Origin: Oscillospiraceae bacterium
GTDB taxonomy: Bacteria > Bacillota > Clostridia > Oscillospirales > CAG-272
DNA: 64,000 bases
Direction: 5' to 3'
NCBI GenBank assembly: GCA_015064685.1
Contig: SVRT01000006.1
Location: 1-64,000, forward strand
Part shown: in pieces, positions 104 to 59,178 of the stretch
How positions within the stretch are numbered: position 1 is the stretch's first letter
How the letters are laid out: each line of letters begins with the position of its first letter
Translations under genes and position numbers: made by a program
Notes under the pieces: model-generated
Databases searched by the model: none
Seen by the model: the letters and a program-made list of their open reading frames with translations, nothing else
Told to the model about the DNA's origin: nothing

Positions 104-402
104 CAATTTTGGGTTTATCGGTCTGTTACGCCTTCCCCAGCGGGGAAGGGGGATCTACGCCACAAGGCGAGTAGTGGGCTATCCTCCTACGCTGTGCGTT
201 TTGGGTGGATGAGGAGGTCGCCATCAAGGTGTTCGACACGGGAATTTTGTGGATTGTGTATTGTAGCATAAAGATTCTTTTGCAACGAAACAATGTCTTT
301 AAAAGACGTGAAGTCCTTGATAGAATGCCCTCCTCATCCACCGCTAACGCGGTCCCCCTTCCCCGCTGGGGAAGGCTTAACGTACCGACAAATCAAAATT
401 TG
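104..402. repeat. Intergenic structured element, family A (copy 1)
   Basis: Left outer end CAATTTTGGGTTTATCGG and right outer end CGACAAATCAAAATTTG; inner CCTTCCCCAGCGGGGAAGG hairpins and GGATGAGGAGGTCGCC / CCTCCTCATCCACC inverted ends. Confidence 0.85.
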
Positions 403-410
403 AAAAACAA

Positions 411-447
411 AACCCCTACGCGGATATTTCCGCGCGGGGGATTTTGC
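411..447 (-). terminator. Rho-independent terminator-like hairpin 3' of the feo operon
   Basis: On the minus strand CCCCCGCGCGGAAATATCCGCGTAGGGG followed by TTTTGTTTTT. Confidence 0.65.
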
Positions 448-3258: not shown

Positions 3259-3526
3259 CAAATTTTGATTTGTCGAACTGTTGCGAATAGCCTTCTCCAG
3301 CGGAGAAGGGGGACCACCGAAGGTGGTGGATGAGGAGGTCGCCATCAAGACGTGCGTCACGGGTGTATCGTGGATTTTGTATTGTGGCACAAGGTTTCTT
3401 TTACAACGAAACAAGGCTTTTTTACAGACGCAAAGCCCTTGAAAGTGCGACCTCCTCATCCACCGCGCGAGCGCGGTCCCCCTTCCCCGCTGGGGAAGGC
3501 TTAACACGCAGATAAACCGCAATTTA
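3259..3526. repeat. Intergenic structured element, family A (copy 2)
   Basis: CAAATTTTGATTTGTCG ... GATAAACCGCAATTT outer ends; inner CCTTCTCCAGCGGAGAAGG / CCTTCCCCGCTGGGGAAGG hairpins. Confidence 0.85.
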
Positions 3527-5652: not shown

Positions 5653-5752
5653 CTTTTATCTCCTTTTTTGGGATTTCTTCTTATATTCTATCATAAAATA
5701 CCGTATATTTCAAGATGGCAGACCGAATATTGCCTGCCCTCATGAGTTTTTT

Positions 5753-6016
5753 CAAATTTTGATTTGTCGAACTGTTTAAATTGAATTTCACGGCTATAAA
5801 TTCACTCCACGGTACGCTTTGCGCCGTAGGGACCGACGTCCTCGGCGGTCCGCAAAGCAAACGCCTACAAAACCCTTATGGCTGAAAAGAAACAATCGTA
5901 TCGAAGCGGACCGCCGAGGACGTCGGTCCCTACGGTTGTTTGGTGTCGTTTGACTTATAGCCGTGAAGTATTTTAAATGTGTTTGCAATTATTATCCCAC
6001 CGATAAACCCCAATTT
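5753..6016. repeat. Intergenic structured element, family D (copy 1)
   Basis: CAAATTTTGATTTGTCG ... CGATAAACCCCAATTTAT outer ends; interior has a perfect 29-bp inverted repeat CCGTAGGGACCGACGTCCTCGGCGGTCCG (5824-5852 / 5907-5935). Confidence 0.85.
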
Positions 6017-6017
6017 A

Positions 6018-7769
6018 TCAATTATGAAAAACGAGGTATTTATCCGTGTACTCGCTATATTTGGATTTATAGAATTCGCTATCGTTTCTCGCTGCCTTGA
6101 GTGACTCATGGAGGTTCATATTACGCTCCTTGACGTCGATGACACAGCCTGCGATATTTGAGCAATGGTCGCTGACTCTCTCCATATTCGTGATGAGGTC
6201 ACTCCAGACAAATCCTGCCTCGATCGAGCAATTACCTCGGCGAAGTCTGTCGATATGCTGAGAGCGCAAGAATTCCTTCATTCTGTCAATTATCTGCTCG
6301 AGAGGCTCTACGCTGTTCGCCACGTCGCAATCCTCCTCTGAGAATGCCGCATACGATATCTCGACTATCTCTCTTACCGCATCGCACATCTTGTCCATCT
6401 CTGCCTGCGCGCCCTCGGAGAAGGCTATTCCCTTATCGCGCAGCTCCTCTGCCGACTCAAGAATATTTACCGCGTGGTCGCCGATGCGCTCAAAATCTCC
6501 TATTGCTTTGAGCAGCATAGATGCTCTTGCACCCTCGGTCTCGTTAAGCTGATGCGAGCTGAGCTTGACAAGATAGCTTCCGATCGTATCCTCAAAGTGA
6601 TCGGTCTTCTCCTCCGCGGCACGGATGCGCTTTGCCGCCTCGGAGTCGTATTTTTTGAGACAAGCCAAGCTCTCCTTGAGCGAAACGCTAGCTATCGCCG
6701 CCATTTCTACGGTGAGAGAGTGACATCTGTCAAGCGCGACCGCAGGAGTTGCAAGGAGTCTCTCATCGAGCTCGACCTTCTTCTCCGCAACCTTCGCATC
6801 GGGAACGAGCTTGTACGCGAATCTTTCAAGAAGTCCCGCCATCGGGAACAGAAGAATGGTGCAGGCAACATTAAATATACTGTGCGCCACCGCGATTCCC
6901 GCAAAGGTCGCCGTCGAATCTATAAGTGCGGGAGCGAATATTGCTTTCACTATTGAGAACGCGCTGAGCCATACGACAGTACCGATCACGTTGAACGAAA
7001 GATGAACGAGCGCGGCACGCTTTGCGTTTTTGTTAGTTCCAAATGACGATAGGATCGCCGTCACGCAGGTTCCTATGTTCTGTCCCATAATGATCGGGAT
7101 CGCCGCGCCGTAGCTTATCTGCCCCGTTACCGCGAATGCCTGGAGTATACCGACCGATGCCGAGCTTGACTGAATTATTGCGGTAACGATCGCTCCTACA
7201 AGCACTCCGAGTATCGGATTTTCAAACATAACGAAGAGCTGACGAAATTCGGGTACGCTTGCAAGTCCCCCGACCGAATCCGACATCGCATCCATACCAA
7301 ACATAAGCACCGCAAATCCAAGAAGGACAGTGCCTATATCCTTTTTCTTATTGCTCTTGCACATCATCGTCATAATTATTCCGATGAGCGCGAGCAGAGG
7401 TGTAAACGACGTGGGTTTTAGCAATTTAAGGATGATATTGTCACCTGATATTCCGCCGAGCGAAAGGATCCAAGCAGTCACCGTCGTTCCGATATTCGCT
7501 CCCATTATGACGCTTATCGCCTGCTTGAGCGACATCAGATTTGAGTTGACGAAGCCTACGACCATTACAGTCGTTGCGGACGAGGACTGTATCACCGCCG
7601 TCACGCCAAGTCCCGTCAGAAGTCCCAAAAAGCGGTTGCCCGTCATCTTGCCGAGCATTACCTCGAGCTTACTTCCCGCGCTTCTCTCGAGCGATTGTCC
7701 CATGATGTTCATTCCGAACAGAAAAAGACAAAGCCCACCTATAAGGGCTAAAATGTCAAAAATGTCCAT
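6018..7769 (-). CDS. Na/Pi cotransporter family protein with C-terminal PhoU-like domain
   Basis: Repeated QSSSATTVMVVGFVN / IIQSSSASVGILQA motifs; PhoU-like helical C-terminus. Confidence 0.9.
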   Translation of the reverse strand: MDIFDILALIGGLCLFLFGMNIMGQSLERSAGSKLEVMLGKMTGNRFLGLLTGLGVTAVIQSSSATTVMVVGFVNSNLMSLKQAISVIMGANIGTTVTAWILSLGGISGDNIILKLLKPTSFTPLLALIGIIMTMMCKSNKKKDIGTVLLGFAVLMFGMDAMSDSVGGLASVPEFRQLFVMFENPILGVLVGAIVTAIIQSSSASVGILQAFAVTGQISYGAAIPIIMGQNIGTCVTAILSSFGTNKNAKRAALVHLSFNVIGTVVWLSAFSIVKAIFAPALIDSTATFAGIAVAHSIFNVACTILLFPMAGLLERFAYKLVPDAKVAEKKVELDERLLATPAVALDRCHSLTVEMAAIASVSLKESLACLKKYDSEAAKRIRAAEEKTDHFEDTIGSYLVKLSSHQLNETEGARASMLLKAIGDFERIGDHAVNILESAEELRDKGIAFSEGAQAEMDKMCDAVREIVEISYAAFSEEDCDVANSVEPLEQIIDRMKEFLRSQHIDRLRRGNCSIEAGFVWSDLITNMERVSDHCSNIAGCVIDVKERNMNLHESLKAARNDSEFYKSKYSEYTDKYLVFHN

Positions 7770-7802
7770 TGTGTTCTCCTTGTTGTTTTATATTTTATGT
7801 TT

Positions 7803-8106
7803 CAAATTTTGATTTGTCGATGCGTTAAGCCTTCCCCAGCGGGGAAGGGGGACCGCGTTAGCGGTGGATGAGGAGGGCATTCTATCAAGGAATTCACGTC
7901 ATTTAAAGACATTGTTTCGTTGCAAAAGAATCTTTATGCTACAAGACAGAATCCACAAAATTCCATGTCGAACAACTTGATGGCGACCTCCTCATCCACC
8001 CAAAACGCACAGCGTAGGAGGATAGCCCACTACTCGCCTTGTGGCGTATGTCCCCCTTCTCCGCTGGAGAAGGCTATTCGTAAAACCGCAATTTATCGGA
8101 CATACG
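7803..8106. repeat. Intergenic structured element, family A (copy 3)
   Basis: CAAATTTTGATTTGTCG ... TAAAACCGCAATTTATC; interior matches copy 1 in inverted order. Confidence 0.85.
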
Positions 8107-9999: not shown

Positions 10000-10017
10000 T
10001 TTCTGCCTCCATTTTTT

Positions 10018-10270
10018 CAAATTTTGATTTATCGGTGAGACGAACAATCCCTCAGTCACGCACAAGGCGTGACAGCTCCCTTTACACAAGGGAGCTTTGT
10101 TGGTGGATGTTCGTACGCATTATAGATGTGAAACCCTTTTAAATTTAAAGAAAATTTCACTATATCCACGTTCTCCAGCTTTCAGGTAAAGCTCCCTTGT
10201 GTAAAGGGAGCTGGCGCGCCTCCGTGCGCGTCTGAGGGATTGTTCGCGTCCTCTATAGACCCCAATTTAT
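10018..10270. repeat. Intergenic structured element, family B (copy 1)
   Basis: CAAATTTTGATTTATCGG ... ATAGACCCCAATTTAT ends; AACAATCCCTCAGTCACGC and AGCTCCCTTTACACAAGGGAGCT hairpins. Confidence 0.85.
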
Positions 10271-10331
10271 TTACACCTTGATTATACCACTTGATTGGAG
10301 TTTATGTCAACAAATAAATTGATTTTGGCAA

Positions 10332-13579: not shown

Positions 13580-13836
13580 CAATTTTTGATTTGTCGGTCT
13601 GTTAAGCCTTCCCCAGCGGGGAAGGGGGACCGCGCTTGCGCGGTGGATGAGGAGGTCGCCCTTTTGAGGGCTTTACTTCTGTAAAAAGACATAGTTTCGA
13701 TGCAAAAGAATCCTTGTGCTGCAAAACAAAATCCACACAATTCCCGTGGGATATATCTTAATGGCGACCTCCTCATCCACCACCTTCGGTGGTCCCCCTT
13801 CTCCGCTGGAGAAGGCTATTCGTAAAACCCCAATTT
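13580..13836. repeat. Intergenic structured element, family A (copy 4)
   Basis: CAATTTTTGATTTGTCGG ... CGTAAAACCCCAATTTA; inner hairpin variant ACCGCGCTTGCGCGGT. Confidence 0.85.
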
Positions 13837-14939: not shown

Positions 14940-15008
14940 TTTATGAACATCCTTTCATTTTGATAAAAGGATTATTTGCACATAACAAACGCTTTATTCA
15001 CTAAATTT

Positions 15009-15450
15009 CAAATTTTGATTTATCGGTGAGGATGGGGGATGCGGGGACGCGTGCCTCCGGCGGGTCGCTTTTTAGAAAAAAGCTCCGCAAAAACTTTCAA
15101 TATTTTGGGTCCTTTTAGGGTGACGTAGGATTTTTCGCCACCAAGGGTGGCTAAAAAAATCCCTCACTGACGTTTTTGTATTGATAAGGTTTAGAACCCA
15201 GCCGATGAAAAACCTTTAAGCTCAAAGAATATCTAAGTTTAAGAAAGCTTTTAAAACGATTACAAATACACTCGCAACACGATAGCAGTGAGGCTATGCA
15301 GGTGCGACACGGTGTAGATAGATAAACCGTCTTAACTTGTATAAAATATGCTTTGGGGTTTTGAGGGGTTTGGGGAACTTTTTTCCCTGGAAAAGTTCCC
15401 CAAGCGCATCCCCCGCATCCCCCCGCGCATCCCCGCTAAACCGCAATTTA
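15009..15450. repeat. Intergenic structured element, family C (copy 2)
   Basis: CAAATTTTGATTTATCGG ... GCTAAACCGCAATTTAT ends around a ~400-bp family C interior. Confidence 0.85.
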
Positions 15451-16923: not shown

Positions 16924-17147
16924 TGTTAATTCTCCTATTTAAAGGGGCGCGTCTATGCCCCAAAATTGCGCACCTTGATATTATATGCCTCCTGCCCGTT
17001 TTTGTCAATAGATAAAGCAAATAAAATTAGCACATTCTTCGCCTTTTTTTGTTGCATTTTGATAAAAATCGCGCAAGAGAATTGGCGTAATAGCACAAAT
17101 CTCTCGCGCGGATCTTATATATTCATATACTTGCTTTCAAATTTTGA

Positions 17148-17617
17148 TTTGTCGGGGACGCGGGGGATGCGGGGACGTGTGCCTCCGTAAGCACAGACTC
17201 CGCCTTCGGCTCCGCTAGTGCGGCGAGCCTGCAAAGCAGGCTTTCGCCATAAGCGGGTCGCTTTTTGAAAAAAGCTCCGCAAAAACTTTCAATATTTTGG
17301 GTCCTTTTAGGGTGAAGTAGGATTTTTCGCCGCAAGCGGCTAAAAAAATCCCTCACTGACGTTTTTGTATTGATAAGGTTTAGAACCCAGCCGATGAAAA
17401 AACTTTAAGTTTAAAGAAAAACTAAGTTAAAGAAAGCTTTTCAAACGATTTCAAATACACTTGCAACACGATAGCAGTGGGGCTATGCAGATGCGACACG
17501 GTGTAGATAGATAAACCGTCTTAACTTGTATAAAATATGCTTTGGGGTTTTGGGGGTGTGGGGGGCTTTTTTTCCTGGAAAAGCCCCCCACGCGCTTCCT
17601 CGCTAAACCCCAATTTA
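17148..17617. repeat. Intergenic structured element, family C (copy 3)
   Basis: CAAATTTTGATTTGTCGG ... CGCTAAACCCCAATTTA; right end overlaps the stop codon of the 17615 CDS. Confidence 0.85.
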
Positions 17618-19687: not shown

Positions 19688-19691
19688 CAGT

Positions 19692-19859
19692 TATATTCGC
19701 CTGCGGCGAGTTCTATTGCTTCGCAGTGATATTCGGCTTACGCCGAGTGATATTCGCTTCGCGAGTTTAGGAGGCGAATATAATATCACTGCGGAACGAA
19801 GTGGAGCAATATCACTGTCGCTTGCGACAATATCACGCTGACGAAGTCGGCATATCACT
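19692..19859. repeat. Tandem mini-hairpin array (family F, copy 1)
   Basis: AGTGATATT spacers alternate with short self-complementary units (CGCTTCGCG, CGGCTTACGCCG); second half uses the inverted spacer AATATCACT. Confidence 0.75.
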
Positions 19860-23900: not shown

Positions 23901-23920
23901 TTTTCTTCTCCTTTCGTATT

Positions 23921-24470
23921 AGCCTTCCCCAGCGGGGAAGGGGGACCACCGAAGGTGGGGGATGAGGAGGTCGCCATTAGGTGGTTTTCCCCTCGATCCA
24001 ATCAGCCTCGTTTATCCCTGCCGCTTGCAGAATATCCCTGCAAACGAACAAAAAATTCATTCTTACATCAAAATTGGTAAATCTCAACACCGTGTTTCCC
24101 AAATTTTCGAGATCGCTGTCTCTCTTTCTGTCCGCTTCAAGATGATCTTCCTCTCGGTGCTGTATTCCGTCAATTTCTATGACCAAACGTGCGCTTGGGA
24201 TGTAAAAATCAACGATATAATTACCGATATTCTTTTGCCTGTTCACGGTAACGGGCAATTTCTTCAAAAAATCGTACCAAAGGTGTTTTTCCTCTGGTGT
24301 CATATTCTTTCGAAGCTCTTGAGCATTTGACACAAGTTTTTTATTGTATTTATATTGCATTTTGTTCTTCCCGAAACAGTAGTGAAGAATTTTTATCGAC
24401 CGTTCATCATCGAAAGGGCGACCTCCTCATCCCCCACCTTCGGTGGTCCCCCTTCCCCGCTGGGGAAGGC
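23921..24470. mobile_element. DUF559-encoding element with perfect 54-bp TIRs (family A autonomous candidate, copy 1)
   Basis: GCCTTCCCCAGCGGGGAAGGGGGACCACCGAAGGTGGGGGATGAGGAGGTCGCC at 23922-23975 and its exact reverse complement at 24417-24470, flanking one ORF. Confidence 0.75.
23977..24360 (-). CDS. DUF559 / Vsr-like PD-(D/E)XK endonuclease-domain protein
   Basis: LRKNMTPEEKHLWYDFLKKLPVTVNRQKNIGNYIVDFYIPSARLVIEIDGIQH...VLRFTNFDVRMN. Confidence 0.9.
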   Translation of the reverse strand: MQYKYNKKLVSNAQELRKNMTPEEKHLWYDFLKKLPVTVNRQKNIGNYIVDFYIPSARLVIEIDGIQHREEDHLEADRKRDSDLENLGNTVLRFTNFDVRMNFLFVCRDILQAAGINEADWIEGKTT

Positions 24471-25172
24471 TTAGTCGCAAAATTCCTCAATACATCTCTC
24501 GTAAGCCGCCACGGGATCCTCCGCTGCGGTGATCGGGCGTCCAACTACGATATAATCCGAGCCTATTCTCTTTGCCTCGGCGGGTGTCATAACTCTCTTC
24601 TGGTCTCCAATATCTCCGTCAGCGAAGCGAACACCGGGAGTCACGGTCACAAAGCTCTCGCCGCATCTGTCGTGAACCTTTCCTGCCTCGAGAGGTGAGC
24701 AAACAACACCGTCAAGTCCGGCCTCCTTTGCGCAGGACGCGTAGTGCATTACTACCTCTGCGATAGGCTCCTTGATAAGCAGATCGTTCTCCATGCTCTC
24801 CTGGTCGGTCGAGGTAAGCTGTGTTACCGCGATAAGCATGGGTCTTGTTCCGTCGGGTCTCGTAAGTCCCTCAATTGCCGCCTCCATCATTCTCTTGGTT
24901 CCTGCGGCGTGGAGGTTGGTCATATCAACGTCAAGGCGAGAGAGTACCGCCATAGACTTCTTTACCGTGTTGGGAATATCGTGGAGCTTAAGATCGAGGA
25001 ATATCTTATGTCCTCTCTTCTTGATCTCTCTTACTATCTCGGGTCCCTCCGCATAGTAAAGCTCCATTCCGATCTTGACGAAGGGCTTTCTCTTTCCCTC
25101 AAACTTGTCAAGAAATGCAAATACCTTTTGAGCGCTGTCAAAGTCACACGCGATGATAACGTCCTTTCCCAT
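24471..25172 (-). CDS. pyrF: Orotidine-5'-phosphate decarboxylase
   Basis: [41 protein letters not shown]. Confidence 0.96.
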
Positions 25173-31465: not shown

Positions 31466-31649
31466 TTTTCTTCTCCGTTTCTTTGGTCTCTTTGGTTTCA
31501 AAAAATTTTTGCCTAAACTTAAGTTATTATAACACAAACACACCTTTGTGTCAAGTGCCATACCCCATTTTTATCAAAAACGTTACAATTAACATATACC
31601 GCAAAGATTTTCTCCCCTGTTATTGGCGAAATTACAAAAATACGGTTTT

Positions 31650-31900
31650 CAAATTTTGATTTGTAGGGGAGGCGAACAATCCCTCAGTCACGCGCAAGGC
31701 GTGACAGCTCCCTTTACACAAGGGAGCTTTGTTGGTGGATGTTCGTACACATTATAAATGTGAAAACCTTTTAAATTTAAAGAAAACTTCACTATATCCA
31801 CGTTCTCCACCTTTCAGGTAAAGCTCCCTTGTGTAAAGGGAGCTGTCGAGCGAATGCGAGACTGAGGGATTGTTCGCGTCCCCTATAAACCGCAATTTAT
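31650..31900. repeat. Intergenic structured element, family B (copy 2)
   Basis: CAAATTTTGATTTGTAGG ... TATAAACCGCAATTTAT; same interior as copy 1. Confidence 0.85.
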
Positions 31901-35334: not shown

Positions 35335-35598
35335 ATTGCAGTTTGTCTGCGTGTTTAGCCTTCCCCAGCGGGGAAGGGGGACCGCGGTAGCGGTGGATGA
35401 GGAGGTCGCCCTTTTGTGGGCTTCGCGTCCGTGTAAAGACCTTGTTCCGATGCATAAGAATCTTTGCACGAAAAGACAAAATCCACACCGCTCCCGTGAA
35501 ATACATCCTAATGGCGACCTCCTCATCCACCACCTTCGGTGGTCCCCCTTCTCCGCTGGAGAAGGCTATTCGCGACAGCTCGATAAATCATAATTTGA
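35335..35598. repeat. Intergenic structured element, family A (copy 5, inverted polarity)
   Basis: Left ATTGCAGTTTGTCTGCG equals reverse complement of the copy 2 right end; right CGATAAATCATAATTTGA. Confidence 0.82.
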
Positions 35599-42452: not shown

Positions 42453-42540
42453 TCCTGCTTTCCCTTTCTACGTTTTTTCTTTGGTAAAGTGTTGCACACG
42501 AGTGCAAAGTGCAAATGTTTTGTGCAGATCGCAGAGTTAG

Positions 42541-42808
42541 ATAAATTGGGGTTTATAGGTGAGATAATAATTGCAAACCCTTTTAAATTACTTCACGGTT
42601 ATAAGTCGAACGACACTACACGATCGTAGGGACCGACGTCCTCGGCGGTCCGTTTCGATACGATTGTATCTTTTCAGCCATAAGGGTTTTATAGGCGTTT
42701 GCTTTGCGGACCGCCGAGGACGTCGGTCCCTACGGCGCAAAGCGTACCGTGGAGTGAATTTTTAGCCGTGAAAGACAATTTAAACAGTTTGATAAATCAA
42801 AATTTGAA
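42541..42808. repeat. Intergenic structured element, family D (copy 2, inverted polarity)
   Basis: ATAAATTGGGGTTTAT ... GATAAATCAAAATTTG; same GTAGGGACCGACGTCCTCGGCGGTCCG palindrome as copy 1. Confidence 0.85.
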
Positions 42809-42811
42809 ATC

Positions 42812-44102: not shown

Positions 44103-44725
44103 GCCTTCTCCAGCGGAGAAGGGGGACCACCGAAGGTGGGGGATGAGGAGGTCGCCATTAGGTGGTTTTCCCCTCGATCCAATCAGCCTCGTTTATCCCT
44201 GCCGCTTGCAGAATATCCCTGCAAACGAACAAAAAATTCATTCTTACATCAAAATTGGTAAATCTCAACACCGTGTTTCCCAAATTTTCGAGATCGCTGT
44301 CTCTCTTTCTGTCCGCTTCAAGATGATCTTCCTCTCGGTGCTGTATTCCGTCAATTTCTATGACCAAACGTGCGCTTGGGATGTAAAAATCAACGATATA
44401 ATTACCGATATTCTTTTGCCTGTTCACGGTAACGGGCAATTTCTTCAAAAAATCGTACCAAAGGTGTTTTTCCTCTGGTGTCATATTCTTTCGAAGCTCT
44501 TGAGCATTTGACACAAGTTTTTTATTGTATTTATATTGCATTTTGTTCTTCCCGAAACAGTAGTGAAGAATTTTTATCGACCGTTCATCATCGAAAGGGC
44601 GACCTCCTCATCCACCGCTTCGCGGTCCCCCTGTCTCGCTGCGGCTCGGGCACATCGCGGCTCTGACAACACACCGTGTTGTCATTCACTACCGCGATGC
44701 CGCTTCGCTACCCGCTGGGGAAGGC
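44103..44725. mobile_element. DUF559-encoding element, copy 2 (right TIR interrupted by a nested hairpin)
   Basis: Left TIR 44103-44156; right TIR begins 44598 and is disrupted by CTCGCTGCGG...TGACAACACACCGTGTTGTCA...CCGCGATG before CCGCTGGGGAAGGC. Confidence 0.72.
44158..44541 (-). CDS. DUF559 / Vsr-like endonuclease-domain protein (identical protein to 23977-24360)
   Basis: 127-aa translation identical to copy 1. Confidence 0.9.
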   Translation of the reverse strand: MQYKYNKKLVSNAQELRKNMTPEEKHLWYDFLKKLPVTVNRQKNIGNYIVDFYIPSARLVIEIDGIQHREEDHLEADRKRDSDLENLGNTVLRFTNFDVRMNFLFVCRDILQAAGINEADWIEGKTT

Positions 44726-48509: not shown

Positions 48510-48558
48510 TTCTGTTCTCCTTGTATTTTTTCTGTGTTAATTATATATATTATGGTTT

Positions 48559-48810
48559 CAAATTTTAATTTGTCGGTGCGTTCGAACAATCCCTCAGTCT
48601 CGCATTCGCTCGACAGCTCCCTTTACACAAGGGAGCTTCACCTCAAAGGTTGAGAACGAGGCTGCAGTGAGTTTCACTTTATCCGTAAAGGATTTCACGG
48701 CTACAAAGCGCACAAACGTCCACCAACAAAGCTCCCTTGTGTAAAGGGAGCTGGCGCGCCTCCGTGCGCGTCTGAGGGATTGTTCGCCTCCCCGATAAAT
48801 TGCAATTTAT
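48559..48810. repeat. Intergenic structured element, family B (copy 3)
   Basis: CAAATTTTAATTTGTCGG ... CGATAAATTGCAATTTAT; AACAATCCCTCAGTCTCGC interior. Confidence 0.85.
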
Positions 48811-48819
48811 CAACTTTTA

Positions 48820-50247: not shown

Positions 50248-50287
50248 TTGTTACCTGCTTTCTTTCTTGTGTGGGGGTGGGTGTGTA

Positions 50288-50541
50288 TTATAAATTGCGG
50301 TTTAGCGGGGACGCGAACAATCCCTCAGACGCGCACGGAGGCGCGCCAGCTCCCTTTACACAAGGGAGCTTTACCTGAAAGGTGGAGAACGTGGATATAG
50401 TGAAATTGTCTTTAAATTTAAAAGGGTTTCACATCTATAATGCGTACGAACATCCACCAACAAGCTCCCTTGTGTAAAGGGAGCTGTCACGCCTTGCGCG
50501 TGACTGAGGGATTGTTCGTCTCACCGATAAATCAAAATTTG
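50288..50541. repeat. Intergenic structured element, family B (copy 4, inverted polarity)
   Basis: ATAAATTGCGGTTTAGCGG ... CGATAAATCAAAATTTG. Confidence 0.85.
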
Positions 50542-50557
50542 ATAATGACGATATGAT

Positions 50558-51514: not shown

Positions 51515-51844
51515 CCGTCTTTTCTTGCCGCGCAAGAAAAACAAAAAGGGCGCACTTATCCATAGAAAATAAGTGTGCCCAGACGGTCGGCTATATTAAT
51601 TTCTGTTTCATGTGGGCAAGTCCACGCGGAATTATGGCATCTGTTCCTTTCGTTCAAGTTCCGACTGCCAAAAAATTCCACTTTCCGTCAGTTGCAGAAA
51701 TCCTCAAAATTCACAATATTATCTTACCACAAACACCCCAAAATGTCAAGTGCTTTTTACCAATACTTGCTCCAAAAATCAACCAATATTTTTTTCTTTT
51801 TTTCGCTCTCCCGTAAGCATCTTTCACAAAGAGGTGCAAAGGTG

Positions 51845-58436: not shown

Positions 58437-58656
58437 TCAGCGATCCTCCGTTAGAGAAATAATTTATCGAAATAATCTAAAAAAGTCATTTTTTCACCGT
58501 TTTCCGCCTTTTCGTGGCAGCAACGCTCCCCCACAAAAAATCAAAAAACTATCTTATTATAATTATACTACCTCCACCCCTTTTTGTCAATAGCATTCTT
58601 CCCTTTTCTTTCTTTTTTTCTTAAAACACAATAAAACCGAAAGGTTTACGTAACTT

Positions 58657-59178
58657 CAAATTTTGATTTATCGGTGAGGCGGGGGAGCGGGGAAAGCGGG
58701 GACGCGTGCCTCCGGCGGGTCGCTTTTTGAAAAAAGCTCCGCAAAAACTTCCCTTATATTAGGTCCTTTAATAGTGAAAAATATAACTCGGACTGCTTGC
58801 TTGCAAGCAGCCGTTTGCAACAAATTGATAAATGAGTTAGTTCAACTTCACGTTGCATATGGTGTCGTAGGATTTTTCGCCGCAAGCGGCTAAAAAAATC
58901 CCTCACTGACCTTATCGTGTTGATAAGGTTTAGAACCCAACCGATGAAAACCCTTTAATCTTAAAGAAAAATTAAGTTAAAGAAAGCCTTGCAAACGATT
59001 TCAAATACACTCGCAACACGATAGCAGAGGGACTATGCAGGTGCGACACGGTGTAGATAGATAAACCGTCTTAACTTGTATAAAATATACTTTGGGGTTT
59101 TGGGGGTGTGGGGGGCTTTTTTCCCTGGAAAAGTCCCCCACGCGCATCCCCCTCGCATCCCCGCTAAACCCCAATTTG
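58657..59178. repeat. Intergenic structured element, family C (copy 4)
   Basis: CAAATTTTGATTTATCGG ... GCTAAACCCCAATTTG; ~500-bp interior with the insert shared with copy 1. Confidence 0.85.

Follow-up and report, generated by a model that had tools for sequence, protein, structure and literature searches.

Two copies of a DUF559 nuclease gene between inverted double-hairpin ends point to a minimal mobile element

Short palindromic units that are dispersed singly or as inverted pairs are known from REP/REPIN systems, where one gene, encoding the Y1 HUH protein RAYT, is tied to the repeats and located between two inverted units. Hairpin ends and a small single-gene format characterize the IS200/IS605 elements, MITEs are ORF-less copies of a few hundred bp that have their inverted ends in common with a gene-bearing element, and the RIME elements of rhizobia comprise two palindromes with a tail that appears similar to that of the ends described below; we know of no link between RIME elements and DUF559. 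Regarding the nuclease family itself, YcjD was placed with Vsr earlier (PMC1189080), DUF559 was assigned to the EDxHD homing family (PMC9403480), and the Vsr-like protein VsrA of Caulobacter, which contains DUF559, was linked to DNA methylation (PMC12907096).

Within the window, i.e., the whole stretch of 64,000 nucleotides analyzed here, we describe two elements, E1 and E2 (Table 1), which in the best reading would play the part that RAYT has for REP sequences, with an unrelated enzyme. As in REP/RAYT, one gene tied to the repeats lies between two inverted units, and short palindromic units are dispersed singly or as inverted pairs, which applies to the type C ends of genome G136 (see below). 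In contrast, the enzyme is a DUF559 protein (Vsr/PD-(D/E)XK-like) that is non-homologous to the Y1 HUH protein, a unit is made up of two hairpins, and the gene-bearing element itself is found in identical copies. Because a Y1 enzyme is lacking, the element falls outside both REP/RAYT and IS200/IS605. Its likeness to the latter lies in the hairpin ends and the single small gene, whereas E1 and E2 contain neither Y1 nor TnpB, their ends are long inverted repeats, and TTA is duplicated at E1. ORF-less copies of a few hundred bp with the same inverted ends recall MITEs; unlike in MITEs, the gene-bearing partner is without a recognized DDE transposase, and the copies in the window's genome are nested in other repeats. 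A target-site duplication (TTA) was observed at the gene-bearing E1 only.

Table 1. Positions of the elements, their ends and related repeats in the window.
Feature	Position	Strand	Remarks
Element E1	23922..24470	-	549 bp, GCC...GGC, between pyrE and pyrF
TTA on either side of E1	23919-23921 and 24471-24473
DUF559 ORF of E1	23977..24360	-	127 aa; PF04480, E = 2.4e-26
Left end of E1	23922..23969	+	outer hairpin CCTTCCCC-AGC-GGGGAAGG, inner hairpin CCACC-GAA-GGTGG, then GGGGATGAGGAGG
Right end of E1	24423..24470	-	inverted copy of E1 left end
Element E2	44103..44725	-	623 bp, between purD and purH-type gene
DUF559 ORF of E2	44158..44541	-	identical to E1 ORF
Left end of E2	44103..44150	+	compensatory outer-stem change, CCTTCTCC-AGC-GGAGAAGG
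Right end of E2	44604..44725	-	inner stem differs (CCGC-TTC-GCGG); expanded nested palindrome replaces outer hairpin
ORF-less element	3288..3503	.	ends as E1/E2
ORF-less element	13603..13818	.	ends as E1/E2
ORF-less element	35357..35568	.	ends as E1/E2
ORF-less relative	130..412	.	same ends and part of outer flanks
ORF-less relative	7793..8074	.	same ends and part of outer flanks
Sites with common outer ends	5750-6019, 42540-42809, 10014-10276, 31646-31900, 50283-50545
Further sites with common outer ends	48540-48811, 15004-15430, 17130-17600, 58650-59165

E1 and E2 are inserted in nucleotide-biosynthesis operons and point in the same direction. They are identical over an unbroken run of 496 bases that contains the complete DUF559 ORF, an identity far above chance (BLAST E = 0), and their differences are limited to the terminal hairpins. 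The neighbor of E1 opposite pyrF is a phosphoribosyltransferase gene, assigned as pyrE by context. The original prediction had described one MITE-like element with a second copy at the E2 position, an identity of about 500 bp including the ORF, and differing outer bases of the terminal inverted repeats. Both copies, their orientation and the extent of identity were recovered, and the sequence difference given there for the left outer hairpin is exact; instead of one MITE-like element, the evidence points to a general system of DUF559 and double hairpins. As direct repeats, E1 and E2 could plausibly recombine and thereby delete the intervening 20 kb.

A typical end consists of two hairpins, for which a median folding z-score of −3.6 was obtained over 88 ends, an approximate value because mononucleotide shuffles were used; with dinucleotide shuffles, the ends in the window reached about −1.6 to −3.2. 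The left outer stems of E1 and E2 differ by two substitutions, from C-G to T-A, and the stem still pairs in E2 because both are compensatory. The original prediction had missed that the right end of E2 is no simple copy: its inner stem differs, and the nested palindrome (~44629-44724) is longer than the outer hairpin it replaces. Within a single element, the stems at the two ends often differ in sequence, yet each of them pairs, which is a stronger argument than the folding z-score; the stems are maintained through paired changes. An Rfam search of the elements matched no family; elsewhere in the window, a Gut-1 RNA (19688-19758, +) and a ZMP/ZTP riboswitch (51570-51705, −) exceeded the gathering score.

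The history of E1 can be read from G010, a genome of the same genus with a PyrF 94% identical to that of the window. Its pyrE-pyrF gap consists of CTCCTTTGTATTA followed by GCCTACAAATTC and runs directly into the pyrF coding end, whereas the window reads CTCCTTTCGTATTA (GCCTTCCCC...GGGGAAGGC) TTAGTCGCAAAATTC, with the element in parentheses. E1 is therefore a precise insertion adjoining the pyrF stop codon, with TTA duplicated at this single clean site. As the empty site is without any repeat, ends and gene arrived together. No clean empty site for E2 was found in relatives, because their purD-purH interval is either different or fragmented. No copy was seen at either site in the sampled genomes of the genus, several of which lack the gene neighborhood. 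Recent movement, as suggested by the original prediction, is supported by the identical core, the empty E1 site with its TTA duplication and the unoccupied sites in sampled relatives; the opposite case named beforehand, an old fixed occupancy, conflicts with the latter. Gene conversion between E1 and E2 may have acted as well. A third, diverged element in the same genome (L002; 77% DNA identity across the portion of the ORF that aligns) has the layout of E1 and E2, and its stems are different yet still paired. A fourth DUF559 gene (L001; contig C8, 37.4-38.0 kb) is adjacent to tandemly arrayed double hairpins of type B and, unlike in E1 and E2, not located between two inverted ends.

Concerning the encoded protein, a profile search assigned the ORF of E1 and E2 to PF04480 with 92.2 bits (cut-off 20.6), and a sub-threshold match to MTES_1575 was the only other domain match. 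This is the only sizeable ORF of the element, and neither a DDE transposase domain, which would be expected of a DDE-type insertion sequence, nor a Y1 or TnpB domain was found in it. Among known structures, it matched 3hrl (E = 2e-22), a Neisseria-type endonuclease-like protein that we take to be NGO0050, and 3r3p (E = 7e-4), a mobile-intron endonuclease, presumably I-Bth0305I, while further matches to homing-endonuclease profiles were weak. The element thus resembles EDxHD homing endonucleases in the nuclease fold, as far as this profile match goes, and differs from them in having its own hairpin ends and in not residing in an intron or intein. With Vsr and the YcjD/NGO0050-like proteins it shares the family or superfamily, whereas the DUF559 loci examined in E. 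coli, Neisseria and Photobacterium showed no clear ends. Values of dN/dS between 0.02 and 0.14, wherever dS was measurable, point to strong purifying selection on DUF559 proteins. End sequences are nearly identical despite synonymous sites close to saturation, and protein and ends therefore both appear to be constrained. A single-sequence AlphaFold model (pLDDT 48) was left out of the analysis.

We searched 149 genomes of the order for DUF559 and obtained at least one match in 41. Inverted ends above threshold, close to the gene and on both sides, were present at 39 of the 57 loci with enough flank, compared to none of 28 size-matched PemK controls (p = 1.3e-10; an earlier comparison of 27 with 28 loci gave p = 2e-8). 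The remaining 18 loci had no ends at threshold, and neither had half of the DUF559 loci from plasmids and phages, those of E. coli and Neisseria included; end-less genes of this kind may be domesticated. Plasmid and phage records, from which the loci of other phyla were drawn, revealed the same layout in Deinococcus, Sphingobium, Sphingomonas (one element sits between sufB and sufC), Novosphingobium, Qipengyuania and the cyanobacterium Pseudanabaena, as well as on one viral contig, and the Sphingobium end has a GGGACC-stem-GGTGGA core in common with the window elements. At the insertion sites in Deinococcus and Sphingomonas, the corresponding gene pairs of relatives have no element between them, but these sequences are too diverged to place the border. 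Several insertions are in frame. At L060, the DUF559 domain is part of an ORF that also encodes an N6/N4 methylase domain, with the ends being translated as well, and the Pseudanabaena element immediately precedes the DPACGSGHF motif in a methylase-like gene whose Aulosira relative is uninterrupted at this point. L178 seems to resemble these cases, with an oxidoreductase-like ORF as the apparent host, and the published SPOUT-DUF559 fusion (PMC1829167) may have arisen by in-frame insertion, too. The Pseudanabaena galeata plasmid pPg_02 (L149) carries the same methylase-like gene with a second in-frame, end-like stretch that is ORF-less and encodes the peptide SPLPPSPKEGEGG.

Nuclease clade and end type go together. 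Across 32 loci, protein identity correlated with end similarity (Mantel r = 0.505; maximum of 5000 permutations, 0.317). All four genomes with a type C DUF559 contain numerous type C ends (67, 43, 33 and 34 copies), compared to at most one copy in each of 16 other genomes; three of the four belong to one genus, and part of the association could stem from shared ancestry. Type B ends occurred in 26 of 41 DUF559-positive and 20 of 108 DUF559-negative genomes (odds ratio 7.6, p = 3e-7). In G136, most type C copies are single units of ~50 bp (GTCAAAACACCCG-hairpin-CACCCTCTTT-TCT-AAAGAGGG) whose conservation drops sharply at both borders, inverted pairs were found in 3 of 20 fetched stretches, and two stem versions coexist, GCCGAC/GTCGGC and GCCGTC/GACGGC, which represent a paired change. 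The gene of type C genomes lies between two inverted units that occur also without it, i.e., the gene-bearing form is two inverted units enclosing a nuclease gene, and matching ORF-less units are dispersed where the matching gene is present.

The window's own genome is less clear in this respect. It holds about 35 ORF-less copies (from 72 end matches), nested in outer flanks of the AAATT type (AAATTTTGATTTRTCG / AAATTGCGGTTTA) that also enclose unrelated inserts, GTAG-type REP pairs among them. The outer repeat may have amplified these copies; because of this nesting, DUF559 cannot securely be credited with their amplification, and we set them aside as proof of mobilization in trans. At a distance of 1.3 kb from L002 there is a RAYT-like Y1 gene (Pfam Y1_Tnp, E = 7e-7) that contains in-frame GTAGGGACCGACGTC repeats; two repeat systems therefore coexist. 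Outside the window, a Y1/RAYT-like ORF of 298 aa (L208:827-1723; contig C24, 95.3-96.2 kb) contains tandem in-frame GTAGGGACCGACGTC REP repeats with the peptide GTDVPGGPLNDAN, and inside it, this REP forms inverted pairs at 5826-5933 and 42626-42733. At least four unrelated repeat families have the outer ends AAATTTTGATTTRTCGG / AAATTGCGGTTTATCGG in common, as though different inserts had found their way into a single outer element or hotspot.

Taken together, E1 and E2 represent two copies of a mobile element reduced to one Vsr-like DUF559 gene and inverted double-hairpin ends. Its mobility and the association of DUF559 with double hairpins are well supported, and the nuclease is probably the mobility enzyme, with catalysis inferred. 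It would recognize the folded or palindromic end and nick or cut there, which would release or copy the element itself and also, acting in trans, ORF-less units; insertion into short AT-rich target sites, TTA in the case of E1, would follow, with joining by the nuclease itself or by host repair. We know of no case in which a Vsr-like fold alone performs strand transfer, and host repair may therefore finish the reaction. Chances seem about even that DUF559 represents a new class of mobility enzymes, which moves its own gene and swarms of ORF-less repeats in several phyla, sometimes by in-frame insertion. A literature search, largely without subscription journals, returned no paper linking DUF559 to hairpin repeats, and the link appears new to us.

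Alternatively, another enzyme, either an unknown transposase or a Y1/RAYT protein, could move the repeats in trans and sometimes carry the nuclease gene along. This would fit ORF-less copies being far more numerous than gene-bearing ones, the RAYT-like Y1 gene in the window's genome, and the 20 genomes with type B ends in which DUF559 went undetected. We nevertheless consider it rather unlikely, as the gene is specifically DUF559 across phyla, follows the end type by clade and is under strong purifying selection, and as Y1 is absent from G045, G058, G076 and G020, all with hairpin repeats or elements, the first three with 43, 19 and 21 copies of their respective end type. Still less probable is a free-standing homing endonuclease that cuts at or near existing inverted pairs, so that its gene is copied in by break repair while the repeats spread otherwise: the match to 3r3p, the EDxHD assignment and the type C units that occur with and without a gene are in line with it, but the E1 empty site has no repeat and the repeat type follows the nuclease clade. 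An ordinary repair gene located near repeats by chance, for which the methylation-linked VsrA might speak, is very improbable given the flanked loci (39 of 57 versus 0 of 28) and the identical second copy. That one copy was counted twice is extremely unlikely: although the assembly consists of 36 contigs and is 78% complete, a single 120-kb contig contains both copies in its interior, and they have unique flanks and ends that differ.

Bacterial genomes commonly contain dispersed palindromic repeats, for many of which no responsible enzyme is known. The pairing of DUF559 clade and repeat type provides a testable candidate for the spreader of such repeats, would supply a function for a large family of uncharacterized proteins, and could explain why DUF559 is found inserted in frame in unrelated genes. 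Should the nuclease be sufficient on its own, few self-sufficient mobile elements would be as small as these. Our data suggest that the little-studied DUF559 family may be the driving force behind a widespread class of mobile repeats.
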